Source of the DNA: Hyphomicrobium sp.
GTDB taxonomy: Bacteria > Pseudomonadota > Alphaproteobacteria > Rhizobiales > Hyphomicrobiaceae
Reading direction: 5' to 3'
DNA length: 64,000 nucleotides
Assembly (NCBI GenBank): GCA_016793445.1
Contig: JAEUME010000001.1
Location: 186,001-250,000 of the forward strand
Shown: piece after piece, positions 40,701 through 54,440 of the stretch
How the letters are laid out: the number at the start of each line of letters is the position of its first letter
Position numbering within the stretch: position 1 is the first letter of the stretch
Position numbers and translations under genes: made by a program
Notes under the pieces: generated by a model
What the model was told of the DNA's origin: nothing
The model's database searches: none
Seen by the model: only the letters and a program-made list of their open reading frames with translations

Positions 40701-41685
40701 TCGCGCGCGTGCGCCCGGCCACCGACCATTGCAGCGGTTCGGTTTGCGTCGTCGCGTTTTCGATGCCGGGCGCAATCTGGCAAGATCCCGCGCGCAGATC
40801 CGTGCCGAACCAGCTCACCACCAGGGAGGCCGCGTGCGCATTGGGCAATGTCGCCTGCAGCTGATCGATACCGGCATCCCAGTCCGTGACCGCTTGGCGC
40901 GTGTGCACGTTGACGGCCTCGAAAACGCCCTCCAGCACGGACTTGCTCACGGGCTCGGTCGCGTACACGAACTCGCCCGAGCCCGGAATGATGACGACGC
41001 CGCGGATGTCCGTCTCACCCCCCGCGACACTGCGGTACACTTCAAAGGAGAGCTGGGGCACGCGGTTGCCGAAATCGGAAAGCGCCAGACGCTGAAAAAC
41101 CACATAGGCAACGCCGCGAAACGCCGGAGCGTACTGCGCGCCGATGTCCGCCGCGATCAAGCCGTCGGGCGCTTGCGTCTCGGTGCCTGTGTAGAGCCGC
41201 CACGTGATGTTCGACAGATCGAGCTCGACGCCGTCCGCCCAGACGCGGCCGATGCGCGTAATCGGTCCCTCGCACAGCGCAACCGCGAAGCTTGCATAGT
41301 AGCGGTATTCGGTCGCCTGCGTGCCGCCGCTTGCCCCGCCAAGTCCCTTGCCGCTGCCCGAAGACTGCGAACTGGTGACGATTTCTTCCTCGAAGTCCTG
41401 CGCCCAGATCACCTGCCCGCCCAACCGCGCGCGGCCATAGAGACGGGGGATGTTCGCGCCTTCCGTCGATGCCGTGACTTGCAGATTGCTGAGCCGCGGA
41501 CCTTCGACCGCGCGGCTCGCGCCGGAACTGCCAAACAGGGCGTTATCAACGAACGAGCCCGCCAGCGCGCCTATCTGACTGCCGATCGCAGCGCCCGACA
41601 GCGTCGTGCCGAGAATGCCGATCCCAGCGGGCAGCAGTGCGCTGCCGGCGGCTGCCCCAACGGCTGCAAGTGCAAGCGTCGCCAT
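37729..41685 (-). CDS. GTA host-specificity/tail-tip protein gp15 (TIM-barrel glycoside hydrolase domain)
   Basis: A 1318-residue tail-tip protein of the RcGTA gp15 type. A glycine/alanine-rich hydrophobic N-terminus is followed by tail-tip domains, then a TIM-barrel glycoside-hydrolase-like region (about residues 400-750, including SLWASASVDAIALDVYWPL and FWFMEVGCPAVDKGANQPN), a phage-tail domain and C-terminal beta-rich modules. It would contact the recipient cell surface. It starts 3 bases after the gp14 gene, with GGAG overlapping the gp14 end. Confidence 0.92.
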   Translation of the reverse strand: MATLALAAVGAAAGSALLPAGIGILGTTLSGAAIGSQIGALAGSFVDNALFGSSGASRAVEGPRLSNLQVTASTEGANIPRLYGRARLGGQVIWAQDFEEEIVTSSQSSGSGKGLGGASGGTQATEYRYYASFAVALCEGPITRIGRVWADGVELDLSNITWRLYTGTETQAPDGLIAADIGAQYAPAFRGVAYVVFQRLALSDFGNRVPQLSFEVYRSVAGGETDIRGVVIIPGSGEFVYATEPVSKSVLEGVFEAVNVHTRQAVTDWDAGIDQLQATLPNAHAASLVVSWFGTDLRAGSCQIAPGIENATTQTEPLQWSVAGRTRATAYQVSLKDGRPAYGGTPSDQTVIGAIRDLAARGFSVTLTPFVLMDIPAGNGLPDPYGGAEQAAYPWRGRMTCHPAPSMVGSPDKTAAAAAQIAAFAGTAAPSHFALAGDSVVYSGPDEWSYRRMVLHQAYLAKAAGGVSAFLIGSELRGLTWVRSAAGTYPFVNALVSLAQDVKSVLGAGVKVSYAADWSEYFGHQPADGSHDVYFHLDSLWASASVDAIALDVYWPLADWRDGRDHADYMAGHRSIYDLDYLKGNVQGGEGYDWYYASQADRDAQVRSPINDGAGKPWVFRYKDIKSWWMNAHYNRPGGVESATATAWVPQSKPFWFMEVGCPAVDKGANQPNVFVDPKSSESFYPYYSNRVRDDFMQRRFLQAFIRAFDWTAQGYIAGANPVSAVTGQRMVDVTRTHVYCWDARPYPAFPRQTDVWGDGDNWQFGHWLNGRLASAPLAELVQQMLTDYDFSAFNAQALHGIVPGYVIDRIMAARDALQPLELAYFFDSIESAGQIQFRHRASEAAVLTLREDELVETRPGAALLSLTRGQETELPASAKLRFLSAETDYQQAVAEARRLAGASGRTAQADLAIVLDETLAGQIAETWLFETWAARERANFVLPPSALCVEPGDLVRVTQEGRERLVRVTEIAENGARTVSALAADPDVYGAVAVPERPARPAVPVQIGSPTLVFLDLPLLDATRDAADGYVAAVQVPWPGGVAVYASAQTSGFALKTVLAAPATMGRTLNAVAGGPEGRIDWANRITVQLSHGSVTSADLVSVLGGVNAAAIETASGSWEIVQFLNAALVGAATYELSGLLRGQAGTEGAIAPLLAAGARFVLLDGAVQRAGITFDQLGLPFTWRYGPSNRGIGDVSYATQTHAFTGVGLRPYAPVHIRGARAAGGDLTLSWIRRTRAGGDNWDASDVPLSEDVESYEIDIVSGATVKRTISSASASAVYTAAQQLADFGAAQSSVAVRVYQMSARFGRGSPGAAIV

Positions 41686-41688
41686 GCG

Positions 41689-42123
41689 TCATGCTCCAGG
41701 AAATCGAAAGACGGCTGCGATACGCCGCCGCCACCATGGCGATAGCGCCACCTCCGCCACCGCCACGCCTTCCATGGCGTGGATCATGGTGGAGGGCCCG
41801 GCGAGGATCGCCGCGTGCTTGGCGGCGGCTCCGCGCTTCATCCGGAAGATCACCACATCACCCGCCGCGCGATCCTCGACAGCGACCTCGATGAGGTGCC
41901 GCCGCGCGGCTTGCAACATCGCTTCGCCTTGATCGGTTTCGGCCCAATCAGGCGCGTAGGGCGGCGGCGCCTCGGCATCATGGCCGTAGATCTCGCGCCA
42001 GACGCCGCGCACCAGGCCCAGGCAATCCGCGCCCACGCCCTTCAAGCTCGCTTGGTGATGATAGGGCGTACCGATCCAGCCGCGCGCGGCCGCGACGACA
42101 AGAGCCTGCCTGTGCGGATCCAT
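41689..42123 (-). CDS. GTA gp14, NlpC/P60 family cell-wall peptidase
   Basis: A 144-residue NlpC/P60 protein. The catalytic cysteine is in GVGADCLGLVRGV (about residue 34) and the histidine in AAKHAAILAG (about residue 102). In RcGTA the protein at this position is a tail-associated peptidoglycan hydrolase. The start at 42123 overlaps the gp13 stop (TGATG); the long open frame to 42303 is not real coding. Confidence 0.92.
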   Translation of the reverse strand: MDPHRQALVVAAARGWIGTPYHHQASLKGVGADCLGLVRGVWREIYGHDAEAPPPYAPDWAETDQGEAMLQAARRHLIEVAVEDRAAGDVVIFRMKRGAAAKHAAILAGPSTMIHAMEGVAVAEVALSPWWRRRIAAVFRFPGA

Positions 42124-42992
42124 CACGCACCGCCCCGCCGGCTCGCGATGCGCGTGACGTAATCGTTGCCGGGCATATCGGGGAAGCCGCGAAAATTGAC
42201 GGCGTTCGAAAAACGCGTTGCGCATGTTGCGATGCGCTTGTCGCAGCCAGCCGTCACGATGATCGTGTCGCCCGCGAGCGGCGGGCCCGCCGCCTCGCTC
42301 CACAACTCGATGGTGACCATGCCCGGCGTCTTGATGTGGCTCTTGATCTCGATTTTCAGTCCATCGGATGGGCCGCTCGCAAAACGGGCGAGGCCACGGG
42401 TGAAGAAGCCGCTGGCGAATCCGTCGAGCCCCGCCATATGGAATTTGCGTGCCGACAAGACGGCACTGATGGTACCCGTCGCCTGATAGGCTGGCGTATC
42501 GAGATGGAGACCGCAGCGCGCATCGCCGAGATCCGCGTCACATGTGTATTGATAAAGCCTGCCCTTGGGCTGCTGCAGGTAATGCGCTAGGCCACGCACC
42601 TCGGCGGTGAAGCTCGCACCCGAGCGGCGCACCTCCCCCAGGCTGCCCGTACGCATCAGCACGCGCTCTTCAGGATCCTGCCAGTTGACGCGAAAGATCT
42701 CGACGCCTGCATCGTCGTAGCGGCCGGCCGCCAGATCGTCTTCACCCAACGCCGCTGAGCTCAGCGCACCGGTTACTTCCAGATTGTCAACCGACAGCCC
42801 GAGCGCATCCGTGATCTCGCTGGCGGTGAAGCCTGTCGCCGCCTCGAAAACCGTGCCGTCGAACGTGAGCGGCCGGTCGTGATCGGTAAAGCCCTGTACG
42901 GCGCCGTCCTTGCGCGTCAGCCGCCAGCACCAGCACAGCGTCGTTGCGCCGTTATCCAAATGGGCTTGCAGCCCGGAACTCAAATCCTTCAC
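42123..42992 (-). CDS. GTA gp13, DUF2163 tail hub/baseplate protein
   Basis: A 289-residue protein with the DUF2163 N-terminal region and the C-terminal FAD/BR0599-like region (RLYQYTCDADLGDARCGL). Several cysteines are conserved in this family, which forms the tail hub in RcGTA. I place the start at a GTG (42992) that overlaps the gp12 stop by 4 bases (GTGA); the frame stays open to 43379, but that part is a shadow of gp12. Confidence 0.9.
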   Translation of the reverse strand: MKDLSSGLQAHLDNGATTLCWCWRLTRKDGAVQGFTDHDRPLTFDGTVFEAATGFTASEITDALGLSVDNLEVTGALSSAALGEDDLAAGRYDDAGVEIFRVNWQDPEERVLMRTGSLGEVRRSGASFTAEVRGLAHYLQQPKGRLYQYTCDADLGDARCGLHLDTPAYQATGTISAVLSARKFHMAGLDGFASGFFTRGLARFASGPSDGLKIEIKSHIKTPGMVTIELWSEAAGPPLAGDTIIVTAGCDKRIATCATRFSNAVNFRGFPDMPGNDYVTRIASRRGGA

Positions 42993-43627
42993 AGGCGCAC
43001 CTCCAGAATCGGGATGTTCGGAATGGCGCCGGACGCAAAGCCCGACAGATTGATCTCGAGTTTGTCCGTGTCGAAGCGCACCGGCACGTCGAACAGGAAT
43101 CCCGCCGTCACGATCTCTCCTGTTGCCGGAATAGAGCCTGCAAGAAACGTCACGACGCCGGTCGCGTGATTGGCCGCAAAATGCGTTCCTTCTGTCTTGG
43201 CGATGCCGTCGACACCAACCAGGACGCTGCCCTGCACTGGCTTCTTGATGGGGCGCGCATAGGGCGCGAAGGCTGCGCCGTACTGCTTGACGAGTTGAAA
43301 CGCTGCCGCGATCCCATCGCCCGTGCCGATCACCTGGTCGAACGCCGCCGGCTCGCCTTGAGGCGCGCACGATTTCCAATCCGCGTGATCGCGCCAGCGA
43401 AACCCGTGCAATCGGCCGCGCCGCTCCTCGAAAAAGGCGATGACGGCGTGCAGATCATCGATCGACTTGACGCCATATCCTGCGTTGTAGCTGCGGCGAC
43501 TGTCTGCCCAACGGCTGTTGCGCTCTTCAAATCCCGAGCCCAGCACGACGATGTCGGTGCGCCGCTCCGGACCTCCTTGCGCGTTGCGCGAGATCGCGGT
43601 GGGAAAGCGGACTTCATGAAAACTCAT
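42989..43627 (-). CDS. GTA gp12, DUF2460 distal tail protein
   Basis: A 212-residue DUF2460 protein (MSFHEVRFPTAISRNAQGG at the start, RRSYNAGYGVKSIDDLHAV, and a C-terminal DKLEINL). In RcGTA this family forms the distal end of the tail tube. Start at 43627 fits the family; a longer frame begins at 43657. It overlaps gp13 by 4 bases. Confidence 0.92.
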   Translation of the reverse strand: MSFHEVRFPTAISRNAQGGPERRTDIVVLGSGFEERNSRWADSRRSYNAGYGVKSIDDLHAVIAFFEERRGRLHGFRWRDHADWKSCAPQGEPAAFDQVIGTGDGIAAAFQLVKQYGAAFAPYARPIKKPVQGSVLVGVDGIAKTEGTHFAANHATGVVTFLAGSIPATGEIVTAGFLFDVPVRFDTDKLEINLSGFASGAIPNIPILEVRL

Positions 43628-43686
43628 GGGCAAACCTGTATGTGTTGCGTTCGGCACGTGCTTGGGCAGGTAACGCGGATGCCGCC

Positions 43687-44310
43687 TTACAGATTGCGCC
43701 GGCCGAGCGCTGCGGCGCGTGCGATCATTGCAGCGACTTGCGTTTCCGATTTTCGGAAACTCTCCGCGTCGGGCGTCGAGATGTTGATGGTGATTGGCGA
43801 CCCGCTCGTACCCGATGCCGCAACGCCAAGCTTGCCGTCGCGCCCGCGCGTCAGCGGCAGGATGGCTTCTGCGCCGCGCTCACCGGCAAGCCCCGTCAGC
43901 CCGCCAGCCAAGGGAAATGTCAGGGGACTTGAAATGACGCCGCCGGAAGCAAAAGGCACCACGCTTCCGCGTTGGAACGCGCCACCCCTGGCAAAGCCGA
44001 GGCCGCCCTTCAATGCGCCCGAGACCAGCGAACCGATGCCGGCCTGGATCGGTGCGAAGGCCGCCTTCAACACCACTTGCGACAAGCTCAAGGCCAGCGA
44101 CTTGAACGTCTCGCCAAGGCTCTTGCCCTTGAAGACGAGCCCTTCGAAGGCGCCGAGCAGCGAGCTTGCAAAGCGCTTGCCCGCGAGATCCGCTGCGTCG
44201 AGTTCGAGGCGCAACGCCCGCGTCTGATCCGCCGCCAACGCGGTGGAAACCGCCACCGCATCCATGCTGCCAGCCATGCTGCTGGAGTCCGTCGTTCCGG
44301 TTCCGGTCAT
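43687..44310 (-). CDS. GTA gp11, short tail tape-measure protein
   Basis: A 207-residue tape-measure-like protein with an amphipathic N-terminal half and a glycine-rich hydrophobic stretch (GGLGFARGGAFQRG, FASGGVISSPLTFPLAGGLTG, GERGAEAILPL) typical of lambda-type tape measures. Its short length agrees with the short tail of GTA particles. GAGGAGAG lies 6 bases before the ATG, inside the end of the gp10.1 gene. Confidence 0.9.
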   Translation of the reverse strand: MTGTGTTDSSSMAGSMDAVAVSTALAADQTRALRLELDAADLAGKRFASSLLGAFEGLVFKGKSLGETFKSLALSLSQVVLKAAFAPIQAGIGSLVSGALKGGLGFARGGAFQRGSVVPFASGGVISSPLTFPLAGGLTGLAGERGAEAILPLTRGRDGKLGVAASGTSGSPITINISTPDAESFRKSETQVAAMIARAAALGRRNL

Positions 44311-44313
44311 CGT

Positions 44314-44487
44314 CTACTCTCCTCGATCAGGAAACTGCTGCATCAGGCTCGCCAGCTCATGGCGCGACAGGGATGGCCCGCGCGCGCCCTCGCCGAACCG
44401 GCCACGCAGCACCGCATCAAGTTCGCGCGGCGTCATGGCCCAGAAGTCGCGCGGCGCAAGTCCAAGCACGCCGAGCCCCAACGCCAT
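44314..44487 (-). CDS. GTA gp10.1, small DUF2376 tail assembly chaperone
   Basis: A 57-residue protein read from MALGLGVLGLAPRDFWAMTP, continuing with RELDAVLRGRFGEGARG, to a TAG at 44316-44314. It matches the DUF2376 family found between gp10 and gp11 in RcGTA-type clusters. The ATG shares one base with the gp10 stop (TGATG), and a stop codon blocks any start far upstream. It is followed 3 bases later by gp11. Confidence 0.88.
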   Translation of the reverse strand: MALGLGVLGLAPRDFWAMTPRELDAVLRGRFGEGARGPSLSRHELASLMQQFPDRGE

Positions 44488-44876
44488 CACGTCGTCCCAG
44501 GGAAAGGGCCAGGCTGCTGGCCCTCCATGTTCGGCGCGCGTCCTGGCGAGGCCGCCACGTCATCGCCGCCGCCTGAGAACGTTGCCGCCAGAAGCTGAGC
44601 GACGATCCCCACGAATCCAGCCGCGCCGCCTTCAGCCTGCATGTTGCCCACTTCGGCGTCCGTGACCGCGTAACCCGCGCCCCGCAACCCCGCGCCGATG
44701 ATGCGCACGCAATCGGCTGCCTTAAGACGGCCGCTGTCGAAACGCTCGGCCAGCGCAACCATGTCCTCCTCGCCAAATGCCGCTTCCAGCTCGGCAAGCC
44801 CATTGAGCGTCAGGACGAGCCGATGCGCGGTACCGTCCAGAACGGCCTCGACTTCGCCACGGTGCTTATTGGCCAT
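44487..44876 (-). CDS. GTA gp10 family tail protein
   Basis: A 129-residue protein of the gene-transfer-agent gp10 family (MANKHRGEVEAVLDGT, LVLTLNGLAELEAAFGEED). It follows the major tail protein and is thought to assist tail assembly. ATG 44876 has AGGAGG 8 bases upstream; an upstream GTG at 44882 is also in frame. Its last bases encode the start of gp10.1. Confidence 0.9.
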   Translation of the reverse strand: MANKHRGEVEAVLDGTAHRLVLTLNGLAELEAAFGEEDMVALAERFDSGRLKAADCVRIIGAGLRGAGYAVTDAEVGNMQAEGGAAGFVGIVAQLLAATFSGGGDDVAASPGRAPNMEGQQPGPFPGTT

Positions 44877-44909
44877 ACCCACATCCTCCTGAAAATTGCA
44901 GCGCCGCCG

Positions 44910-45323
44910 TCAGATCGGCGTGAAGATCAGTTCGCCCGCGCTCTCCAGCGCGAGATCGAACGCAACCTCGTTGTCGTGGCGTCCGGACAACTCGAAGGAG
45001 GCGATATGGAATGGCCCTTCGATGATCCCGAAATCCGGCACCGCGATCTGCCAGTTGCGGATCGTGCCGTTGAACACGTACGAGCGGATCAATGCATCCG
45101 AGCTTGCATCCTTGAACACGCCCGATCCCGTCACCCGTGCCGACTTGACGCCGCCGCCTTCCAGAAGCTCTCGCCACTGGCCTGCGCTTTCCGCGTGCGT
45201 GATCTCGACGCTCTCGGCATTGAATGCGATGCTGCGCGAGCGCAACCCTGCGACGGTCGCGAATGCGCCCGCCCCCGTGCTGTCAACCTTCAAGAGAAGG
45301 TCCTTGCCTTTCTGTGCTGCCAT
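44910..45323 (-). CDS. GTA gp9, major tail protein (TP901-1 family)
   Basis: A 137-residue tail-tube protein (MAAQKGKDLLLKV, LRSRSIAFNAESVEITHAES, RHDNEVAFDLALESAGELIF). This is the TP901-1 type fold used by GTA gp9. GGAAAGAG precedes the ATG. Confidence 0.93.
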   Translation of the reverse strand: MAAQKGKDLLLKVDSTGAGAFATVAGLRSRSIAFNAESVEITHAESAGQWRELLEGGGVKSARVTGSGVFKDASSDALIRSYVFNGTIRNWQIAVPDFGIIEGPFHIASFELSGRHDNEVAFDLALESAGELIFTPI

Positions 45324-45423
45324 GTTGGGCTCTTTCCGTTACGCGTGACTAAACCAACGCCCTTCCCGCTTGCGCGAGGAAAGGCTAAATCCGTATGCTG
45401 ATTTCCTTTATCGGCGATGACCG

Positions 45424-45831
45424 CTAAAGCGGCTCTGTCACCGCGCGAAAGCGCGCGGTGCCATGAAACGTCTCCCCGTCGGGATCGCGGCGGGCGTCTG
45501 AAAACTCATGCCGCAGGTTGATGAGCCGGTGCCCGTCGAGCGCAATCGCCGCATCATGCAGCGCGGCGCGCGCGGCCGCGATTACGGCATTTGCCTCCTT
45601 GCGCCCGGCCGCGCGCGACCAGACATGCAGGGTCAGCGTGTGCTCGCTGCCGTCTTCGCTCCCCGTCGACCAGTCGCGCTCCGTCGTCTGCCCGATGGTG
45701 ACATAGGGAAACTGCGCGCGCTCGGGCACATCATCATAGACGCGCGGCCCACCCAGAGCGGTCAGAACATTCACATTGCTGGTCAAGCAGGCATGAAGCG
45801 CCTGCTGGAGGGCAAATCCGGCACTCGACAT
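45424..45831 (-). CDS. GTA gp8, DUF3168 tail terminator protein
   Basis: A 135-residue DUF3168 protein (ALQQALHACLTSN at the start, AQFPYVTIGQTTERDWST in the middle). In RcGTA it caps the tail tube. GAGG lies 7 bases before the ATG. It is preceded by 39 bases of spacer after gp7. Confidence 0.9.
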   Translation of the reverse strand: MSSAGFALQQALHACLTSNVNVLTALGGPRVYDDVPERAQFPYVTIGQTTERDWSTGSEDGSEHTLTLHVWSRAAGRKEANAVIAAARAALHDAAIALDGHRLINLRHEFSDARRDPDGETFHGTARFRAVTEPL

Positions 45832-45870
45832 CGCATCACCTCTTTTACAAACTTCACAAGCAGGCGGATC

Positions 45871-46203
45871 TCAAAGATCGCGCTCCTCCACGATGCATTT
45901 CAGCCAACGGCCGCGCTCCTCGATATCGAGCACGCCGCGAATATCGAACGTGCGGGCGCCAAGCCGCAGCCGCATTTCGGGCGCGACGCCCGCGCGATGC
46001 CGTATCCAGACGTCGTGTGTCGCGCGGCCGGCGACGCGGTCGAGCGTCAGCTCTTCAGCCGCGGTGCGCGGCCACACTGCGGCCCAGACATCGGCGACAT
46101 GGAGCCAGGTGATAACCGCACCGCCGCCGCCATCGGCGGCGCGCACGGGCCGCTCGATGCTGACCCGGTGGCGCAGATCTCCGATTTCGATTTGCGTGCT
46201 CAT
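45871..46203 (-). CDS. GTA gp7, head-tail joining (head closure) protein
   Basis: A 110-residue protein of the phage head-tail adaptor family (IEIGDLRHRVSIERP, DVWAAVWPRTAAEE). Start at 46203 overlaps the gp6 stop by 4 bases (ATGA); the frame to 46302 is a shadow of gp6. Confidence 0.9.
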   Translation of the reverse strand: MSTQIEIGDLRHRVSIERPVRAADGGGGAVITWLHVADVWAAVWPRTAAEELTLDRVAGRATHDVWIRHRAGVAPEMRLRLGARTFDIRGVLDIEERGRWLKCIVEERDL

Positions 46204-46775
46204 AAGCGGATCTTCCTGAACGGAGCGATCAGGTCGGAGACCACCTCGGGAACGCGCGCCGCATCCGAGCCGATGTCGATCGCCTCGCGGCGTTCGTACC
46301 AATGGGCGATCAAGAGCAGCAGCGCGTGCCTGATCGGCGCGGGCACATGGGCGCCCACCGGACCAAAACCCGCCTCGAACCCGATCTCAATTCCAGCCGC
46401 GGGCACGCCCGGCTCCGGGCGCGTGGTAGCGTTCCACACCAGGCGCGGCGGCTTGGAGGCCAGATCGACGAGATAGCTCGTCGAAGGAACCGTGAGCCAA
46501 TCGCCCGACGCTGTTCTGACACGCACGCCGGTGACCGTCTTCAGGGGCGAGAGCGGGATCTCGATGTCATTGCCGCATGGCCAGCGGTCGAGCTGCAGCG
46601 TCCAGGCCTGGTCTATCAAGGCGAGAGAAAGCGCGCTCTCGATGTGCAGCCTGGATGTCAGAATGAGGCTGCCGATCAGCACGTCTTCCGCCGTGCCATC
46701 GACGCGCAAGTGCGCCTTTGCCTCCTCCACCGTCAGGGGCTCGGAGACGGGCGCGCTCGTCATTACGAGTGCCAT
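46200..46775 (-). CDS. GTA gp6, head-tail connector protein
   Basis: A 191-residue connector (PLTVEEAKAHLRVDG near the start, QLDRWPCGNDIEIPLSPL in the middle). The family forms the ring beneath the portal. ATG 46775 has AAGGA 7 bases upstream; the longer frame begins at a TTG (46790). Confidence 0.9.
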   Translation of the reverse strand: MALVMTSAPVSEPLTVEEAKAHLRVDGTAEDVLIGSLILTSRLHIESALSLALIDQAWTLQLDRWPCGNDIEIPLSPLKTVTGVRVRTASGDWLTVPSTSYLVDLASKPPRLVWNATTRPEPGVPAAGIEIGFEAGFGPVGAHVPAPIRHALLLLIAHWYERREAIDIGSDAARVPEVVSDLIAPFRKIRL

Positions 46776-46966: not shown

Positions 46967-48184
46967 TCACGAGACGGAGAACTTCATCAGCTTGATCGCA
47001 TCGAAGTCCTGCACGCCGCCGCCCACGCGCTTGGTCGTGTAGAACAGCACGTAGGGTTTGGCGGAGAAGGGATCGCGCAGCACGCGAATGCCTGCGCGAT
47101 CGACGACCAGATAGCCACGCGAGAAGTCACCGAACGCGATCGACAGGGAGTTGGCGGCGATGTCGGGCATGTCCTCGCATTCGACCACGCCGTAACCCAT
47201 CAGCGAGGGCATCTCGCCTGGCGCGTTTGCAGGCTGCCAGAGGTAGTTGCCCTGGCCATCTTTCATCTTGCGGATGGCCGCCTGCGTCGACCGGTTCATG
47301 ACGAAATGCGCATTCGCGCGATAGGGCGCCTTGGCCGCGTAGATCAGGTCGAGCAGCTTGTCGCCCGCGTTCGTCGCTGGCAACGCGCCTGCAACGCCGG
47401 TCGCGATATAACCCAGGTTGCCCCACGTCCACGCGCTGTTCGCGACCGTCGTGTAGGTCAGAAATCCCTTGGGCTTGTTCACGCCATCGCCGGTGACAAA
47501 AGCCTTGCCTTCCTGATCGGCGAACGCGATGCGCACCTCTTCTGCCAGCCATTCGTCGATATTGACGATGGCATCATCGAGCAGCGCGCCGCTGGCCGCC
47601 GGCATGGCGTAGAGTTCCATGGTCGGAAACTGCAGTTCAGCCAGCACGGGCGTATTCGTCTGCGGGCGCGCTGCAGTCTCCGCGACCCAGCCTGAGTCCG
47701 CACCCGTTGTCGCGAACGGACGCTTGTAGATGGAGCCCGATACGGTGCGAATGCCTGCAATCGAGCGGATCGGCGAGATCGCCTTCAAGAGGCGATTGAC
47801 CGTTGCCTCTGTTTCCGCGGGCACGAGATAGCCGCCATCCTGGCCCGAGCCAATGGAGAGTGCCTTCTCCTCAAGCTTGACGAGGCGAGCAGCTTCTCCC
47901 TTGCGCACATAGGCGTCAAAGGCCGACTTGTGCGCAAGATCGCTCACCGGCGCAAGAGCCGGCCCGAGCTGCGGACGCTGGGCCTTGCGCGAAAGCGTAT
48001 CGAGAGTTGCCTCGATGCGCGCGATCTTTTCCTCGCGCACGACGTCTGCGGCCCCGCGCTGCTCGATCTCAGCAAGGCGGGCATTATTGTCTTCCTTGAA
48101 GGCCTCGAAAGCCTCCATGAACTCATCGAAGGCGCGCGCGGTTTCTCCGCCCACGCCCTTGCTCTCAAGGGGGGTCGTATCCAT
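46967..48184 (-). CDS. GTA gp5, HK97-family major capsid protein
   Basis: A 405-residue HK97-fold capsid protein. An N-terminal coiled-coil scaffold region (about residues 15-90, EAFKEDNNARLAEIEQRG) precedes the mature shell domain (about residues 100-405, with SIGSGQDGGYLVPAETEATV and LMGYGVVECEDMPDI). AAGGAC lies 8 bases before the ATG. It is separated from gp4 by about 500 bases without an intact gene, which is unusual for GTA clusters. Confidence 0.95.
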   Translation of the reverse strand: MDTTPLESKGVGGETARAFDEFMEAFEAFKEDNNARLAEIEQRGAADVVREEKIARIEATLDTLSRKAQRPQLGPALAPVSDLAHKSAFDAYVRKGEAARLVKLEEKALSIGSGQDGGYLVPAETEATVNRLLKAISPIRSIAGIRTVSGSIYKRPFATTGADSGWVAETAARPQTNTPVLAELQFPTMELYAMPAASGALLDDAIVNIDEWLAEEVRIAFADQEGKAFVTGDGVNKPKGFLTYTTVANSAWTWGNLGYIATGVAGALPATNAGDKLLDLIYAAKAPYRANAHFVMNRSTQAAIRKMKDGQGNYLWQPANAPGEMPSLMGYGVVECEDMPDIAANSLSIAFGDFSRGYLVVDRAGIRVLRDPFSAKPYVLFYTTKRVGGGVQDFDAIKLMKFSVS

Positions 48185-48682: not shown

Positions 48683-49390
48683 TCAGATAGCCGCGTGCAG
48701 GCTTGCCGTTGCCCTGCGCAGGCGCGCGGCTATCGCGGCATCCTCGCCCGCCAGCACCTGGCCGGAACGCAGCGCCTTGAGCCCGCCGAGGCCATCGCGC
48801 ATTAACGCGCGCGCCTCGCTGCGCGTCAGCCCGGCCTCCTGCGTCAGCCAGCGCTCGAACGCGCGTTCCGTCGGCACGCTCTCGCGAAACGGCGACATCT
48901 TCACCGCCGAGACACGCGCCTGGGGCAGCATGGGAAACGTCACGACCGAGATCTCCCAAAGATCGAGCTTCAGGATGCGGCGCACGCCGTTCCTGGCATC
49001 GCGTTGCGTGCGCTGCGCCTTGAAGCCGATGGAAAGGCCATCGAGCGCGCCCACGCGCATGAGGCTCAACACTTCGCGCGCTTTCGCCACCGCCGCCATC
49101 AGACGTCCGCGCACGTAGAGGCCCTTGGCATCCTCGCGAATCTCTTCCCATACGCCGATGGGCTCTGCCGGATCATGCTGGAACAGCATCTTGATGCCGG
49201 CGGCGCCTTTCGCGCGCAGGCTCTCGGCGAACGCGCCGCGCATCACCACATCGCGGCCCATGTCCTCCGCATCGAAAAGACTGGCGTAGCCTTCGAAGGT
49301 GCCATCCTCGAACACGGCCTTGGTCTCAAGGCGCCGTGGTTCGCTCACATCCGCGCATGCGGGCATGAGAAATAGCGGTCGCGCACTCAT
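48683..49390 (-). CDS. GTA gp4, HK97-family prohead protease
   Basis: A 235-residue U35 prohead protease. The catalytic histidine is in LFQHDPAEPIG (about residue 73) and the serine in ALDGLSIGFKAQ (about residue 118). It trims the capsid scaffold during head maturation. Its ATG overlaps the stop of the third portal-tail copy (ATGA), which suggests that this copy is the original 3' end of the portal gene. Confidence 0.93.
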   Translation of the reverse strand: MSARPLFLMPACADVSEPRRLETKAVFEDGTFEGYASLFDAEDMGRDVVMRGAFAESLRAKGAAGIKMLFQHDPAEPIGVWEEIREDAKGLYVRGRLMAAVAKAREVLSLMRVGALDGLSIGFKAQRTQRDARNGVRRILKLDLWEISVVTFPMLPQARVSAVKMSPFRESVPTERAFERWLTQEAGLTRSEARALMRDGLGGLKALRSGQVLAGEDAAIAARLRRATASLHAAI

Positions 49391-49609
49391 GTTCGCTCCG
49401 TTCTTTGTTGTTTCGCAATGTAGGTCGTGATGGCCAGCGGCGGTTCTGGAGTGTTTTCCGGAAAGGTGGGGACCGGTTCTCCAGTTGCCTTCCCACCCAG
49501 CGCCTGATAGCCCGCCGCAACGCGCTTCTCGTCATCGGTCAAGAACGACACGCCCTCAAGGCGCGCCCACAGCGCATCGCGCTCCGGAAGGAGCCGTCAT
49601 TTGTCGCCA
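49387..49609 (-). pseudogene. Portal-gene 3' end, copy 3 (probably the original tail)
   Basis: The frame reads LLPERDALWARLEGVSFLTD, then DEKRVAAGYQALGG, then a different end (KATGEPVPTFPENTPEPPL to RTERT), closing at a TGA that overlaps the gp4 start. The first ~40 residues match the end of the intact portal protein. A stop codon precedes it, so it cannot be the end of a working portal protein today. A Hyphomicrobiales repeat (49453-49487) is embedded in its 3' part. Just before it are ~30 bases resembling the end of the immunity-like gene at 50390. Confidence 0.75.
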
Positions 49610-49636
49610 ACATTTTAGCCCTCGGTCATTGCGAGT

Positions 49637-50056
49637 TCATTCGGGGCGGTGCCACCACTCGAAGCCTCTTCCGTCCAGCAGAGCTTCACTCGCTTGCAGG
49701 CCGCGGTCGGTCAAAATCGCCTCCGGTTCCGGCGTTTGGTAATAGGGTGGACCAGAACAACGAAGATCGTTCCATAGATTTCTAGTTTCATTGAAGCGAT
49801 AGTTTTGCACCAGCTTGCCGAGTTCGGACAATGCCTCGTCTTTCGAGAGAGGCTGGTTCCCAAAGGGAATGGACGTCAAACCGAGCTCTATCTGATTGCC
49901 GAGAAGAAGCTCGCGAAGCGCTTTTTCGTATATAACAACCTCGCTTTGATCGCCTTGAGGATCGATCACCGTATTGAGAAGTGGAAGCAATCTATCACAC
50001 CCTGCTTCTTCCAAGCTGGCAAGTATCCGGGATTTCATTTCCTCGATATTGATCAT
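49637..50056 (-). CDS. Immunity-like small acidic protein, second copy
   Basis: A 139-residue soluble protein starting MINIEEMKSRILASLEEAGC and ending DGRGFEWWHRPE. It is a clear relative of the protein at 50390-50782 in length, in the N-terminal helix pattern (LEEAG..xLLPLLNTVI) and in the aromatic end (RGFEWW / RGYQWW). It starts 5 bases after the stop of a toxin-like remnant, the usual place for an immunity gene. GAGG precedes the ATG. No known family was recognised. GC content is lower than in the neighbouring GTA genes, which suggests transfer. Confidence 0.7.
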   Translation of the reverse strand: MINIEEMKSRILASLEEAGCDRLLPLLNTVIDPQGDQSEVVIYEKALRELLLGNQIELGLTSIPFGNQPLSKDEALSELGKLVQNYRFNETRNLWNDLRCSGPPYYQTPEPEAILTDRGLQASEALLDGRGFEWWHRPE

Positions 50057-50061
50057 CGTCC

Positions 50062-50173
50062 TCAGTCCTTGCTAGTCTTATTCGGTATCGTAATGTGCGC
50101 TCCTTCACGGAGGTCTACAGAGGATCGATATCTGTAGTAATAGTCGTTCCAATGCTTCTGGTCAGAGTCTGAC
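50062..50173 (-). pseudogene. C-terminal remnant of a second toxin-like gene
   Basis: Only the last ~35 residues remain (SDSDQKHWNDYYYRYRSSVD, LREGAHITIPNKTSKD). They match the end of the toxin-like protein at 50803-51531 (PQKFYFQHYYRYRARNDKKW, PVPVPDKD). The remnant directly follows portal-tail copy 2, out of frame by one. The linker and middle of the toxin domain are missing, so it is probably inactive. Confidence 0.65.
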
Positions 50174-50394
50174 CTATGCCTTCTTCGCACCTTCCGGTTG
50201 CCTCCACTCCGCGCCCGGCGGCCGGCCCGACGAAGGAGAGTCGCCGGGCGCAAACTCAAAAGGGCGGCGTTTCTTGGTTCCCTCCCCGCCCAGCGCCTCG
50301 TACCCTGCCGCAATGCGCTTCTCGTCATCGGTCAGGAACGACACGCCTTCCAGCCGCGCCCACAGCGCATAGCGCTCCGGAAGGAGCCGTCATT
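50174..50394 (-). pseudogene. Portal-gene 3' end, copy 2
   Basis: The frame reads LLPERYALWARLEGVSFLTD, DEKRIAAGYEALGGEGTKKR, then RPFEFAPGDSPSSGRPPGAE and WRQPEGAKKA before a TAG. The first 40 residues match the end of the intact portal protein almost exactly. Unlike in the intact portal, the frame continues through a 41-bp palindromic element (50211-50251). It begins in frame directly after the stop codon of the immunity-like gene at 50390. It has no start of its own. Confidence 0.75.
50211..50251. repeat. 41-bp palindromic element in portal-tail copy 2
   Basis: Arms GCGCCCGGC and GCCGGGCGC (9 bp, perfect) enclose a 23-bp core beginning GGCCGGC and ending GAGAGTC. The element is translated in frame as APGDSPSSGRPPGA. 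It belongs to the same family as the elements at 51422-51528, 51700-51782 and 54067-54275. Confidence 0.75.
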
Positions 50395-50782
50395 GTCGCC
50401 ACCATTGATAGCCTCGCGTTTCGAGAACTACTCGCGCGCGTGCCTTCCCTTTCTCGGTCGTCACGACCTCGGGCCAGGGCCGGGGGCCGCCAGTCCAAGT
50501 CCCATCGCTGCGCAAAACCAAGTGATCATCCAGTTGTTCGATTACGCGCTCCGAGAGTTCTTTGGAAATTTCTCTTAACTCTCGTCCAGTAGCATCATCA
50601 AATGCGACACGTACCAGATCGGCATTTATCAAACCGGCAAGGGCGCTCCTTATCCCAGCACGTTGTTGATCGACGGTCATCTCTTCTGCAAAAATCGTGT
50701 TTGCCAATGTCGGAAGATTCTCCTCGCCCGCCTCCTCAAGCTCACTTAACAAGCGGTCCTGCAGTTCCGTTTCATCTTCCAT
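50390..50782 (-). CDS. Immunity-like small acidic protein, first copy
   Basis: A 130-residue soluble protein starting MEDETELQDRLLSELEEAGE and ending VLETRGYQWWRQ. It is a paralogue of the protein at 49637-50056. ATG 50782 is chosen because AAGGAG lies 7 bases before it; the longer frame to 50839 overlaps the toxin-like gene. It starts 20 bases after the toxin-like gene stops, an order typical of toxin then immunity genes. No family is recognised. Portal-tail copy 2 follows its stop codon in the same frame. Confidence 0.72.
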   Translation of the reverse strand: MEDETELQDRLLSELEEAGEENLPTLANTIFAEEMTVDQQRAGIRSALAGLINADLVRVAFDDATGRELREISKELSERVIEQLDDHLVLRSDGTWTGGPRPWPEVVTTEKGKARARVVLETRGYQWWRQ

Positions 50783-50802
50783 CAGGCGCTCCTTGCGATC
50801 CT

Positions 50803-51531
50803 CTAATCCTTGTCCGGCACTGGAACCGGCTGGCCCCATTTTTTATCGTTCCGCGCTCGATACCGATAATAGTGTTGAAAATAGAACTTCTGAGGCGGCT
50901 CCATCTTTGAGGGGCCTTTGATTGGCCGCTTCATAATTCGAACTTGTTCGGTCGAAGTGCCATTCTCTAGCAGCATCCCGGGATCTCTAGTCGCCCTCTT
51001 ATAAGTAAATCCTCTGTTGCTCAATTCCTTGCGCAACCTATTGGCGCCCCAATCATGGCTTGTCCCAGGAATGGCATCGCGGCGCAGTTCGTTGAAGCGC
51101 GCATTGGCTTCAGCCTCGATTCCGATCTGATGCGATATGGCTCCTTCGGCGCTCTCGTAGAGACCCGGGCGTGGCCGCCACGACGGATCAATGTCCCTCA
51201 CGCGTGAAACCGCAGCCTCGGCGGCATTGGTTGCGTTCGACAAGCGCATGATTTGCGCTGGCGTCGCCTCGAATGTGTATCCGCCAACTCTGACATTGCC
51301 GCCACGGCCGCGCGCTTGCGCCAGCTCTACGCCTGTTTCACCGCCACCCGCATCCGTCCACTGCCCGCCGTCGGGATGGCCGGCGGGCACGCGCGGCTGA
51401 TCGGGCGAGTATTTTACGTTGGTGCCCGGCCACACTCCTTCGTCGCGCCGGCCGCCGTCCACCGCGCCTTCCGGCCGGCTCTGCGCAGCGGAGTCGGAAG
51501 GCGCAAACGAAAGAGAGTCGGAAGGCGCAAC
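50803..51531 (-). CDS. Toxin-like protein linked to the portal gene (start unclear, possible frameshift fusion)
   Basis: The open frame overlaps the portal end and runs 242 residues past the portal stop. After a palindrome-derived linker comes YSPDQPRVPAGHPDGGQW, a motif I associate with linkers before toxin domains in phage-borne proteins, then a globular part with conserved-looking patches (LYESAEGAISHQIGIEAEAN, STEQVRIMKRP, KFYFQHYYRYRARNDKKWG). No good independent start exists: the only in-frame GTG overlaps its own GAAGGAG. The frame joins the portal frame by a -1 shift at CCCTTTT. I infer a C-terminal effector domain carried by the portal protein, followed by its immunity gene. The enzymatic activity is unknown. 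Confidence 0.65.
   Translation of the reverse strand, partial: VAPSDSLSFAPSDSAAQSRPEGAVDGGRRDEGVWPGTNVKYSPDQPRVPAGHPDGGQWTDAGGGETGVELAQARGRGGNVRVGGYTFEATPAQIMRLSNATNAAEAAVSRVRDIDPSWRPRPGLYESAEGAISHQIGIEAEANARFNELRRDAIPGTSHDWGANRLRKELSNRGFTYKRATRDPGMLLENGTSTEQVRIMKRPIKGPSKMEPPQKFYFQHYYRYRARNDKKWGQPVPVPDKD
51422..51528. repeat. Cluster of 41-bp palindromic elements in the toxin linker
   Basis: Two full elements lie almost end to end: 51422-51462 (arms GTGCCCGGC and GCCGTCCAC, 7 of 9 pairs) and 51464-51504 (arms GCGCCTTCC and GGAAGGCGC, perfect). A half element (GAGTCGGAAGGCGC) follows at 51515-51528. They start 2 bases after the portal stop and are read through in the toxin-like frame. Confidence 0.75.
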
Positions 51532-51540
51532 TAAAAAGGG
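51531..51540 (-). promoter_or_regulatory. Candidate -1 ribosomal frameshift site at the portal stop
   Basis: The portal frame ends CGC CCT TTT TAG. CCCTTTT (51540-51534) fits the X-XXY-YYZ slip pattern, and a -1 slip enters the toxin-like frame (P F L V A P S D). Five bases after the slip lies the arm GCGCCTTCC of a palindromic element that could form the stimulating hairpin. Confidence 0.5.
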
Positions 51541-52850
51541 CGGCGTTTCTTGATTCCCTCCCCGCCCAGCGCCTGATAGCCGGCCGCAATGCGCTTCTCG
51601 TCGTCGGTCAGGAACGACACGCCTTCCAGCCGCGCCCACAGCGCATCGCGCTCGGGGTTCAGCGCCTCAACCTGATCGAGATCGGGCCGCAATTCTATGG
51701 CGCCAAGCGACTCCCCTGCGGAGAGCCGGCCGCTTGCCACTGCGCCCGGCGGCCGGCTCGACGGAGGAGAGTCGCCGGGCGCATGAGAGAGAGGCGCCAG
51801 CCAGAATGAGAACGCGCGCGTCATGCGATTGACGAGCGGCAGCACGGTCTGACGCCAGAAGGCGCGCTGCGCTTCGGCGTAGTTCGCATACGTGTTGTCG
51901 CCGGGGATGCCCAGCAGAAGCGGCGGCACACCCAACGCCAGCGCGATCTCGCGCGCCGCGTTGTTCTTGGCGGCGATGAAATCCATATCCTTGGGGCTGA
52001 GCGACAAGGGCTTCCAGTCAAGCCCGCCTTCCAGCAGCATCGGGCGGCCGGCGTTGAGTGCGCCCTGATAGCTGGCATCGAGTTCGCTCTTGAGCCGCTC
52101 GAACTGCTCCGCCGTCATGTGTCCGTTCGCCGCCGCATAGACGAGGGCGCCCGAGGGGCGCGCGGAATTGTCGAGCAACGCCTTGTTCCACTTCGAGGCC
52201 TCATTGTGGATGTCGATGGCGGTGGCGGCCGCCTCGATCGGGCTCATGCCGTAATGATCGTTGACGGGATGAAAGAGCCTTGTGTGCAGGATGGGCCGCA
52301 CGCCCGGCAGTACTTCGCCGGCAAAGCGCACGCTATATCCGTTCACGCAATACTCGTAGCCTTCGGGCCAGCCGTCGGGACCCGGGATCACCTTCATGCG
52401 GTCGGGCCGCAGGATATGCAGCTCGCGGATGTCTCCCCCGATCGCCACGGCCTCGACGTAGGCATTGCCCGCGACGAGCAGGAAGCCATACCAGCTTTCG
52501 AGAAAATCTGTCCCCGTGTGGTCGTAACTTGGGCGGCGCATCAGATCGAGCAGCGGATGGCTCTCGATTTCCTGCGTGCCGCGATAGAGCAGCAGCGGGA
52601 TGGAGGCGGCCGCTTCCGCTATCATGCGCACGCAGCGATAAACGATCGCGTTCTGCATGAAGCCTTCGCGCGCGAAGGCGCCATAGTCGCGCGGGCTCCA
52701 GACCGGTTCGCCCAGGCTGTGAATGGCGACGAGCCCGTTGGCGCGCGAGGCCTTCTGATCGGGTGCTTTCGGTACATGGCCGGCCCGTCGCGCGGGCAGG
52801 CCAAAGGGCGCCCGCAGCAGCCGCTGCATGCGTTCGGTCACTCTCATCAT
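51531..52850 (-). CDS. GTA gp3, HK97-family portal protein
   Basis: A 439-residue portal protein of the HK97 family (VYRCVRMIAEAAASIPLLLY, LYHPV-like LFHPVNDHYGMSPIEAA, LGVPPLLLGIPGDNTYANY). It forms the head vertex through which DNA is packed. Residues about 356-383 (APGDSPPSSRPPGAVASGRL and following) are an in-frame insertion encoded by two adjacent palindromic elements. The last ~40 residues are the segment repeated twice downstream. AGAGGA precedes the ATG. Confidence 0.94.
   Translation of the reverse strand: MMRVTERMQRLLRAPFGLPARRAGHVPKAPDQKASRANGLVAIHSLGEPVWSPRDYGAFAREGFMQNAIVYRCVRMIAEAAASIPLLLYRGTQEIESHPLLDLMRRPSYDHTGTDFLESWYGFLLVAGNAYVEAVAIGGDIRELHILRPDRMKVIPGPDGWPEGYEYCVNGYSVRFAGEVLPGVRPILHTRLFHPVNDHYGMSPIEAAATAIDIHNEASKWNKALLDNSARPSGALVYAAANGHMTAEQFERLKSELDASYQGALNAGRPMLLEGGLDWKPLSLSPKDMDFIAAKNNAAREIALALGVPPLLLGIPGDNTYANYAEAQRAFWRQTVLPLVNRMTRAFSFWLAPLSHAPGDSPPSSRPPGAVASGRLSAGESLGAIELRPDLDQVEALNPERDALWARLEGVSFLTDDEKRIAAGYQALGGEGIKKRRPF
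51700..51782. repeat. Pair of 41-bp palindromic elements inside the portal gene
   Basis: Two elements lie one base apart: 51700-51740 (arms GCGCCAAGC and GCTTGCCAC, 7 of 9 pairs) and 51742-51782 (arms GCGCCCGGC and GCCGGGCGC, perfect), in opposite orientations of the core. They keep the portal frame open and add about 27 residues. Confidence 0.75.
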
Positions 52851-52898: not shown

Positions 52899-54440
52899 TC
52901 ACAGCACGCGCAGTCTCGGGCTTGCGCCGCCCGAAAGCATCAACTCTGTCAACGCCCAAACCAGCGCATCGACGCGATCAGGACTGCGGCCATCGACTTT
53001 GCCGTCGGGCCCGAACGCGCACATCTGATCTTCAAGCCGCTCGAAACGGCCCACGTGCACGACGCGCCCTTCCGCATAGAGCGCGGCGACGGGTTCGGCG
53101 CGCAGATACTTGCCGCGCGTCGCGTAGACCTTGCGCACCGGAACCTCGGCGCGGAACTGCCGCAGCACGCCCGCAACGAGATCGCCGCCCTGGTTGACTT
53201 CGGCGACCAGCGTATCGGCCTCGAATTCGTCGTAAGCGGCGAGCGCTGCCTTTGCCCATACGTTGGGCTCGCGGCCCTGCAGCGAGCGGTCGGCAAGAAC
53301 ATAGGCGCGCTTGTCCTCGCCAAGTCCTGCCACCACGATGCCGCACGCATCCGACGCGCGCGTCGACGTCACAGGCGGATCGAGCGCCACGACCACGCGC
53401 ACCATCTGAGGCGCTTGCGTCATGCGCGTTTCCTCGATCCAGTGCCGGCGCCACAGCGCATGCTCGGCATCCTCGACGATGTCGCCGAGCAGCTCCTGGC
53501 GGCCGAGCGCCGATCCCGCATAGCGCCGGTTCATCTCCGCGAGGAATGCGGGCGCGAGGTTGTCCTCGTTGTCGGCGGTGGCAAGTTTCACCGTCACGGT
53601 TGCGGGATCTTCCATGATCTTCTTCAAGAAGCGCAGAGGCTTCGGCGTCGTCGTCACCACGGCTTGTGGCGTCTCGCCCAGCCGCAGCGCAAACTGCAGC
53701 ATGTCCCACGCCCGCTCGCCGCGGTACCATTTCGCCAGCTCATCGCACCAGGCGTGCGTGAATTGCGGTCCGCGCAAGCCTTCCGCCTCATCGGCGGCAA
53801 ACATCTGCGCGATCGCCCCGCTCGGCCAGGTGAGCTGCTTCTTGGAAATCTCGAGCACGGGACGCTCGTTCGCGGGATGAATGGCGAGCAGCCCCGAAAC
53901 ACCTTCCACCATCACGCTGCGCACCTCGCCGATGGTCTTTCCCACGAGCGCGATGCGCGCCTGAGGGCCGTTTATCGGATCGCATGCTTTCGAACGCACC
54001 CACTCGGCCCCGGCACGGGTCTTTCCCGAGCCGCGCCCGCCAAGCATCATCCAGACTCTCCATGTTGCGCCTTCCGACTCCGCTTCGCGGAGCCGGCCGG
54101 AAGGCGCGGTGGACGGCGGCCGGCGCGACGAAGGAGTGTCGCCGGACACATCAGAAAGAGCGCCTTCCGACTCCGCTTCGCGGAGCCGGCCGGAAGGCGC
54201 TGCACTTGGCGACCCCCCCGCGCCGGAAGGCGCCCCGCTTGGCGGCCGGCTCGCGGAACGCGAGTCGCCAAGCGCAACATAAAGCGGCGCAAGTTGCTCC
54301 TCGCGCGCCCACAGCTCCCAGTCGTAGCGGAGGAATTCCAGCTCGGCCGCGCTCAGCTCCGCCAGGTCACTTTCCAGCTGCCCGCTTGCGATGGAGGCGC
54401 TCAAGGCGGTCCGCAATCTCGAGGCGCAACTCTTCCGCAT
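52899..54440 (-). CDS. GTA gp2, large terminase (DNA-packaging ATPase/nuclease)
   Basis: A 513-residue terminase. Walker A is GGRGSGKT (residues 134-141), the Walker B region is in FTHAWCDELAKW, and the C-terminal RNase-H-like nuclease follows (VVALDPPVTS and an aspartate in AEVNQGGDLVA). It packs host DNA into particles. Residues about 56-125 are an in-frame insertion made of palindromic elements, with APSGRLREAESEGA present twice, placed just before the ATPase core. The gene overlaps the end of gp1 by 74 bases if ATG 54440 is used; in-frame TTG codons are alternatives. Confidence 0.94.
   Translation of the reverse strand: MRKSCASRLRTALSASIASGQLESDLAELSAAELEFLRYDWELWAREEQLAPLYVALGDSRSASRPPSGAPSGAGGSPSAAPSGRLREAESEGALSDVSGDTPSSRRPPSTAPSGRLREAESEGATWRVWMMLGGRGSGKTRAGAEWVRSKACDPINGPQARIALVGKTIGEVRSVMVEGVSGLLAIHPANERPVLEISKKQLTWPSGAIAQMFAADEAEGLRGPQFTHAWCDELAKWYRGERAWDMLQFALRLGETPQAVVTTTPKPLRFLKKIMEDPATVTVKLATADNEDNLAPAFLAEMNRRYAGSALGRQELLGDIVEDAEHALWRRHWIEETRMTQAPQMVRVVVALDPPVTSTRASDACGIVVAGLGEDKRAYVLADRSLQGREPNVWAKAALAAYDEFEADTLVAEVNQGGDLVAGVLRQFRAEVPVRKVYATRGKYLRAEPVAALYAEGRVVHVGRFERLEDQMCAFGPDGKVDGRSPDRVDALVWALTELMLSGGASPRLRVL
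54067..54275. repeat. Four 41-bp palindromic elements inside the terminase gene
   Basis: Full elements are at 54067-54107 and 54160-54200 (identical; arms GCGCCTTCC and GGAAGGCGC), 54109-54149 (arms GTGGACGGC and GCCGGACAC, 7 of 9) and 54235-54275 (arms CCGCTTGGC and GCCAAGCGC, 8 of 9). A half copy ends at 54233. In the best copies the core itself folds (CTCCGC-GAA-GCGGAG; CTCGCG-GAA-CGCGAG), with paired changes. Confidence 0.8.

Follow-up and report, generated by a model that had tools for sequence, protein, structure and literature searches.

Why does the portal gene of a gene transfer agent (GTA) end three times over, with toxin-like and immunity-like genes between the copies of its end? 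The question is raised by 64,000 nt of DNA from Hyphomicrobium sp. (GCA_016793445.1, contig JAEUME010000001.1, positions 186,001-250,000, forward strand), here called the window, in which the copies lie between the portal gene (gp3) and the prohead protease gene (gp4) of a GTA cluster. The genome that holds the window is labelled G000; the other G numbers stand for genomes compared with it, and L numbers for individual fetched loci. We consider it very probable that the gp3-gp4 interval is a polymorphic toxin locus with the GTA portal as its carrier, in which cassettes would recombine in the portal tail and displaced ones would be orphaned. The best explanation of the whole, which joins to this locus the delivery of toxin by the particle and the killing of non-immune recipients, is held with rather less assurance, as likely to be correct.

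A repeat search of the window found the 3' end of the portal gene at three places in the gp3-gp4 interval, all in one orientation (Table 1). Over 128 nt aligned without gaps, the middle copy is 93% identical to copy 1 and 76% identical to copy 3. DNA alignment delimited a core of about 100 nt common to the three copies, which encodes ERDALWARLEGVSFLTDDEKR.AAGY.ALGG; copies 2 and 3 have a further 30 nt or so in common upstream, where the resemblance to the portal copy is weak. As a null model, the interval was resampled 100 times by a first-order Markov process, and the highest identity that the 87-nt portal unit reached without gaps was recorded; it had a mean of 0.44 and a maximum of 0.49, against 0.885 and 0.862 for the real copies. 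The copies of the window are nearest to its own portal tail, the best of 30 other genomes reaching only 0.76-0.77. A preliminary description of this stretch had reported the triplication in one orientation, a toxin-like and an immunity-like gene followed by a toxin remnant and a related immunity-like gene between the copies, and a last copy at the gp4 start. The repeat search, the alignment and the Markov controls reproduced the triplication with copy coordinates that agree within about 30 bases, the genes between the copies are as it claimed, and the frame of the last copy ends in an ATGA overlap with gp4.

Short-read assemblies fail at repeats, and the assembly of G000 is in 20 contigs, which might point to an assembly error, or else to chance similarity, as the source of the copies. 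The repeats and cassettes also occur, however, in G006 and G007, which are single-contig genomes, and a fusion occurs in G017, likewise of one contig, while metagenome contigs also carry extra copies or long extensions. The three copies differ from one another, and resampled sequence did not exceed 0.53 identity over the five intervals tested. Assembly error is unlikely because G006 and G007 share the architecture, and we regard it and chance, ruled out by independent genomes and by resampling, as having scarcely any probability.

The predicted pI is 9.8 for the window toxin, a basic protein, and 4.6 for the immunity-like proteins, which are acidic. A gene of the immunity family adjoins the toxin in each of the ten toxins aligned, those of the window and nine relatives (viral contigs stood outside this check). 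The structural model of the immunity-like protein (predicted local distance difference test score, pLDDT, 89) had as its best VIA row 1yyv_B (Z 8.9, 82 residues, 2.6 Å), with many tied winged-helix rows, and no Foldseek match at E<=0.001; a winged-helix likeness of this kind could also mean a regulator. When PDB sequences were searched with profiles built from the two alignments, toxin and immunity, no match was better than E 0.4.

Table 1. Predicted features of the GTA cluster and its gp3-gp4 interval, in window coordinates (ORF, open reading frame)
Feature	Coordinates	Strand	Basis
GTA gp2, large terminase	52899..54440	-	PF03237/PF17289
GTA gp3, HK97-type portal, 439 aa	51531..52850	-	PF04860, 282.6 bits; 6tba alignment
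Portal-tail copy 1, inside portal gene	51529..51656	-	repeat search and alignment
CCCTTTTTAG, slippery-type run that closes with the stop codon of the portal	51531..51540	-	toxin frame -1 relative to portal
Toxin-like domain, 204 aa (mechanical ORF start 51639)	50803..51417	-	nine relatives aligned
Linker VKYSPDQPRVPAGHPDGGQWT	51355..51417	-	relatives have this type between portal tail and toxin
Immunity-like gene 1, 130 aa from ATG 50782, predicted winged-helix	50390..50782	-	immunity-family alignment, model
Portal-tail copy 2, head of orphan cassette	50253..50380	-	0.885 identity to own portal unit
Toxin remnant, C-terminal end QKHWNDYYYRYRSSVDLREGAHITIPNKTSKD before the stop (ORF 50062-50328)	50062..50160	-	by-eye comparison with toxin-family alignment
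Immunity-like gene 2, 139 aa, family of gene 1, intact toxin gone	49637..50056	-	immunity-family alignment
Portal-tail copy 3, frame running to ATGA overlap with gp4 start (49390)	49460..49587	-	0.862 identity to own portal unit
GTA gp4, prohead protease	48683..49390	-	PF04586; TIGR01543
GTA gp5, major capsid protein	46967..48184	-	PF05065
GTA neck and tail genes	37729..46302	-	GTA_TIM gp15, NlpC/P60 gp14, gp13, DUF2460 gp12, GTA-gp10, tail tube, tail completion, head completion

Portal fusions and cassette arrays in relatives

The same interval was read in related genomes. In G006, G007, G012, G013, G015, G016, G017 and G021 the portal frame runs through the tail and a linker (such as KYREDQPRVPAG..GGQWT or KFNPYHD..GRFT) into differing C-terminal domains, and in G023 it enters a toxin by way of a different linker. 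The frame of G018 enters the linker and stops soon after, that of G001 stops near the expected linker start, and in G005 the linker reaches the contig end. Portals stopping soon past the tail, with no extension, were found in G002, G008, G010, G027, G032, G035, G052 and G059. Among the 13 genus genomes with a complete gp3-gp4 interval, a fusion or additional copies of the tail were found in ten (G000, G001, G006, G007, G013, G015-G018 and G021) and neither in three (G002, G008 and G010).

Two to seven portal-tail copies were counted in 10 of 31 loci scanned, window included: seven in G023, within 8.9 kb, five in G006, three each in G000, G013, G015 and G016, and two each in G001, G007, G018 and G083. 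The scan was ungapped with an identity cut-off of 0.58, some of its copies being just 0.59-0.65 identical, and gapped copies escape it, as in G021, where several are found by tblastn. Loci in which the portal-tail pattern failed (L110, L111, L113, L121, L125, L127, L128 and L132) and the truncated portals of L095 and L100 stand outside this count and outside the own-tail count given below. At the level of the family, G030, G067 and G070 carry toxin-immunity genes or further portal-end copies at the interval; G120, from another family, has a fusion and a duplicated portal end, and by eye the end of its toxin is like the one in G021. The linker is in frame in 24 of the 137 fetched loci that reach the portal end, and lies within 400 nt in 7 more; since this set, which excludes the window, was selected by similarity and contains some same-species repeats, such counts are not a frequency.

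Known toxin domains are found at the variable end in relatives. Pfam matches above cut-off were obtained for five of ten cassette proteins: RNAse_A_bac, the CdiA-CT RNase A family, forms a portal fusion in G015 (6e-14) and G016 (3e-17) and stands in an orphan cassette of G023 (4e-13), CdiA_C occurs in G021, and WHH/Colicin-DNase in G023. Two of eight further proteins also passed the cut-off (RNAse_A_bac in G021 and a second WHH/Colicin-DNase in G023), and an RNAse_A_bac match in G006 fell just below it. Among ten small genes behind toxins, one, behind a WHH toxin of G023, matched SUKH-1 immunity and none of the other nine passed a cut-off; NCBIfam matched none of 10 cassette proteins. The middle part of the window toxin, residues ~43-116, recurs in proteins that end in other domains, a sharing that appears to represent a second level of domain shuffling. 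In L042, L059, L043 and L045 the middle segment is joined to ends that look deaminase-like by eye (HAE.NALLRA, C..C); L042, the only one of the four scanned, gave a MafB19-deam match below cut-off.

Linker-type sequences were also seen away from the portal. In L124 (G049, from another family), positions 5001-6840 contain the start of a linker-type toxin behind gp4 and, after it, a second copy of the 3' end of gp4; the repeat logic may therefore extend to the protease gene. In L067, from a Rhodopseudomonas metagenome-assembled genome, two ORFs, at 3260 and 5937, lie on either side of the GTA capsid gene; their N-termini are alike (RPDAARFLIPG and RPDVARFLIPG, then KYSPTQPRVPAG.PDGGQWT), and their terminal domains differ.

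Exchange, selection and the frame at the portal stop

Cassettes appear at different positions in different genomes. G007 and G016 have portals 96% identical over the region compared, and the portal-fused cassette of G007 (436-1604) matches the second-position cassette of G016 (1426-2615) over 1190 nt at 81% DNA identity, the front position of G016 being held by an RNase A cassette; the breakpoints lie in the portal tail. Similarly, the front immunity gene of G013 with the next tail copy (1158-1656) matches, at 87%, a toxin-less immunity gene and tail copy of G015 (1859-2351), and this G015 gene also sits behind an RNase A cassette. A mechanism of the following kind is suggested. The natural C-terminus of the portal would act as a recombination junction. 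Each cassette would comprise a copy of the portal tail together with a linker, a toxin domain and an immunity gene, and its arrival or movement would come about through homologous recombination within the portal tail. The cassette in front would be fused to the portal, and displaced cassettes would stay behind as orphans.

Toxin and immunity genes appear to co-diverge, their distances being correlated at r=0.85 over 10 pairs and at 0.93 over the 6 genus pairs. Ratios of nonsynonymous to synonymous substitution rates (dN/dS) were 0.09 for the toxin and 0.18 for the immunity gene of G007/G016, 0.13 for the toxin of G083/G067, 0.17 for immunity-like gene 2 of the window against G007, and 0.30 for the immunity gene of G013/G015, values that point to purifying selection on the closest toxin and immunity pairs.

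The preliminary description had proposed that the portal gene acquired alternative C-terminal effector cassettes by the logic of CdiA and Rhs loci. In-frame fusions, known toxin families, immunity genes, tail copies and the positional swap all favour this proposal; the gp3-gp4 intervals of relatives, once searched, proved to hold variable C-termini with conserved junctions, and the pattern that it had named as a refutation, the same small genes at fixed places with no junction repeats, was not seen in relatives. Its suggestion that the portal gene had gained a C-terminal effector holds up for relatives, in which fusions occur, and missed that the window's own fusion frame is interrupted.

That interruption is one of several observations that weigh against a toxin locus carried by the portal. 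The portal stop of the window, at 51531, lies in CCC TTT TTA G, and the toxin is in the -1 frame. Because the front toxin is one frame off the portal, a fusion in the window would need frameshifting or slippage at CCCTTTTTAG; alternatively, the toxin is produced on its own, or the fusion at the front is at present turned off. In the tail copy of the window's orphan cassette there is one T fewer and the frame stays open. G083 and G067 also have CCCTTTTT with an immediate stop, and their toxin is out of frame yet under purifying selection. Among loci whose toxin frame runs open past the portal stop, G000, G067 (L131; the same context in L158) and L161 show a shift of -1, and G083 (L130) and L155 one of +1. 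A run of at least five T or G (CCCTTTTT, GGGGGGGC) precedes the stop in five of the six out-of-frame loci, L155 having CTTTAG. The run beside the portal stop is a possible frameshift or phase-variation site; programmed frameshifting is not claimed because the direction of the shift varies between -1 and +1, and programmed -1 frameshifting as a conserved rule is unsupported.

The remaining points of this kind concern the window proteins, the spread of the array and the history of the cassettes. The toxin and immunity genes of the window had no Pfam or NCBIfam match. The toxin model (mean pLDDT 76, residues 6-38 below 50) gave no Foldseek match at E<=0.001, and its best VIA row, the polymorphic toxin PT7 (8owu_B; Z 5.8, 66 residues, 3.1 Å), is a weak fold match. 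The structure search that had been suggested for this domain thus led to no known fold, and the toxin fold is left unassigned because the match to 8owu_B is too weak. No linker was found near the portal end in 106 of the 137 loci, so that the array is not general. An order-wide search with a tail-plus-linker model matched 200 of 297 genomes, and since most among the matches listed end at the tail without a linker, the GTA tail is common and the array is not. Of the 22 tail copies downstream, just 13 have the portal tail of their own genome as their nearest. Toxin-portal distances are themselves correlated (r=0.45, 9 pairs, p 0.006; within the genus 0.44, p 0.10), as are immunity-portal distances (r=0.50, p 0.0004), so part of the cassette history is vertical. 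Saturation affected four of the nine dN/dS comparisons; of the four that involve window genes, three were affected.

In a different account of the locus, selfish or addiction-like toxin-immunity modules lodged in the GTA operon and guard it against loss, with the repeats as no more than an insertion scar and no delivery by particles. Such modules would fit the persistence of orphan immunity genes without an intact toxin, in the window (immunity-like gene 2) and in G015. They would also fit the linker-type ORFs that stand separate beside gp4 or gp5 in L067 and G049, the latter with its duplicated gp4 end, from which it follows that repeats can arise without fusion. The GTA portal match is missing in 5 of 22 genus genomes, a loss that modules of this type could oppose. 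The account sits poorly, however, with the in-frame linker fusions, with the purifying selection in the closest pairs, and with toxin classes that match those of delivered CDI and colicin toxins (CDI, contact-dependent inhibition), and we judge it unlikely. The exchange of cassettes in the tail of a carrier portal is preferred.

The gene transfer agent as a probable toxin carrier

The cluster of the window appears from its gene content to be a GTA of the RcGTA type. Its head-tail genes include the GTA-specific families PF13547, PF11836 and PF23666, among others. Family matches were obtained for eight of the nine neck and tail proteins scanned (gp1 and gp6 lay outside the scan), GTA_TIM at 483 bits, Rcc01698_C and the GTA-gp10 tail tube among them; the protein at 43690-44310, alone among the nine, had no family match. 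Alignment with 6tba, the portal chain of RcGTA, covers residues 29-352 and 383-425 of the portal of the window, and the repeated segment appears to correspond to the natural C-terminus of RcGTA-type portals.

A neighbouring gene at 55980-58307 was read by eye as encoding a PBP1a-like penicillin-binding protein (PBP), and the portal lies 3.1-6.8 kb from the PBP-like gene in 16 of 16 genus genomes that have both on one contig; in G012 the two are on separate contigs. No GTA portal match was found in G004, G011, G014, G019 and G020, and the portals of G003 and G009 are truncated. The GTA locus thus gives every sign of being fixed and vertically inherited, and a transient prophage was ruled out because of the GTA-specific families and the fixed neighbour. 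In the 'phages' collection the toxin was absent at E<=0.01 and all portal relatives were less than 60% identical; 88 of 89 viral contigs fetched contain a portal of the family of the window portal. In G003 (L095) the portal is cut at residue 323 and is followed by sequence that looks lysin-like by eye, as if the span of the GTA from portal to lysin had been deleted.

A GC-rich palindromic repeat family was also seen, at 51422-51515, 51700-51793 and 54067-54284, inside the terminase and portal frames and just past the portal stop. It gave 17 genome matches at E<=0.001, the query counted, and GGRL..ESPSA peptides in the portals of relatives resemble its peptides. Presumably these elements are akin to the palindromic elements of the Rickettsia type that lie within genes.

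CDI and Rhs systems have a constant carrier, a variable C-terminal toxin, an adjacent immunity gene and orphan cassettes headed by a copy of the carrier junction. The locus described here is predicted to share this plan with CdiA/CdiI and Rhs, having a constant N-terminal carrier with variable C-termini, a downstream immunity gene and orphan cassettes headed by the junction repeat, as well as RNAse_A_bac and CdiA_C toxin domains and SUKH-1 immunity in relatives. It differs in that the carrier is the capsid portal of a GTA, not a secreted filament or an Rhs shell, and in that the junction is the natural C-terminus of the portal; the two-partner secretion of CDI (CdiA/CdiB) was not found, the carrier being a PF04860 portal.

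Phage head components are known as toxin carriers from the MuF toxins, in which, according to passages of Jamet 2017 (PMC5576092) and Zhang 2012 (PMC3482391), a portal-associated head protein carries a toxin whose packaging into the phage head is predicted. The likeness lies in the head component that serves as N-terminal carrier; MuF toxins are found on phages, prophages and prophage remnants, unlike the fixed GTA of the window. A MuF domain (PF04233/PF06152) was not found, the sole Pfam match of the portal at E<=1 being Phage_portal and the toxin having none. In its main text, Jamet 2017 (PMC5576092) does not use the words 'orphan', 'recombination' or 'gene transfer'. Passages of Iyer 2017 (PMC5512222) describe portal-PBECR and portal-2H fusions of phages as phage effectors; like the system of the window these place an effector domain on the portal, and unlike it they come, in those passages, without a portal cassette array or a GTA, 'gene transfer agent' having 0 occurrences in the main text. 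RcGTA itself (Bardy 2020, PMC7296036) has gene and portal families in common with the window, and its portal chain (396 residues) ends at the repeated segment with no toxin extension. No GTA effector array was described in the titles and abstract starts among the matches listed, a coverage largely outside subscription journals and preprints. The system is thus best described, on comparison of its genes, as polymorphic toxins of a CDI/Rhs-like and MuF-like kind with a GTA portal as carrier.

Possible delivery by the particle

The preliminary description had also suggested that the particle may deliver or display an effector. The crown of a portal is C-terminal and faces the lumen of the head. 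A C-terminal extension would lie inside the head, would be cut loose in the linker or close to it, perhaps by the protease gp4, and would enter recipients with the DNA. We lean, if only slightly, towards the view that the head incorporates a toxin fused to the portal, the C-terminal extension facing the packaged DNA, and that this toxin enters recipients with or after that DNA and kills or arrests those without the cognate immunity, kin being spared. A further point against delivery is the width of the exit: the RcGTA portal has a crown and a channel of 28 Å at its narrowest (PMC7296036), so that a fused toxin would have to undergo cleavage or unfolding before it could pass out.

In relatives with a fusion, translation of the toxin goes together with that of a late structural gene, and the toxin might act in the cell that makes it when the GTA is expressed, for example by bringing about death or lysis of the producer or by shutting down phage competitors, at a threshold set by immunity. 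An immunity-family gene directly behind the toxin in all ten pairs would block action in the producer, however, and the varied, unrelated toxin types suit conflict between strains better than a fixed function of the cell. We therefore rate action in the producer as very unlikely, and retain delivery to recipients.

A broader proposal, which we offer as possible rather than probable, is that GTAs bearing toxins are kin-discriminating weapons that inject host DNA together with a toxin, survived only by recipients that have the matching immunity cassette, the DNA going preferentially to kin and lysis being repaid as with bacteriocins. Slippage beside the portal stop, as in the window, G083 and G067, whether translational or replicative, may set the fraction of portals that bear a toxin. 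That bacteria retain GTAs although the producing cells lyse has yet to be explained. If the explanation given here is true, a toxin array at a fixed GTA site, swapped among relatives, would offer a testable reason for the upkeep of GTAs, through the killing of non-kin or through transfer restricted to kin, and the capsid portal of a domesticated phage would be added to the known carriers of exchangeable toxins.

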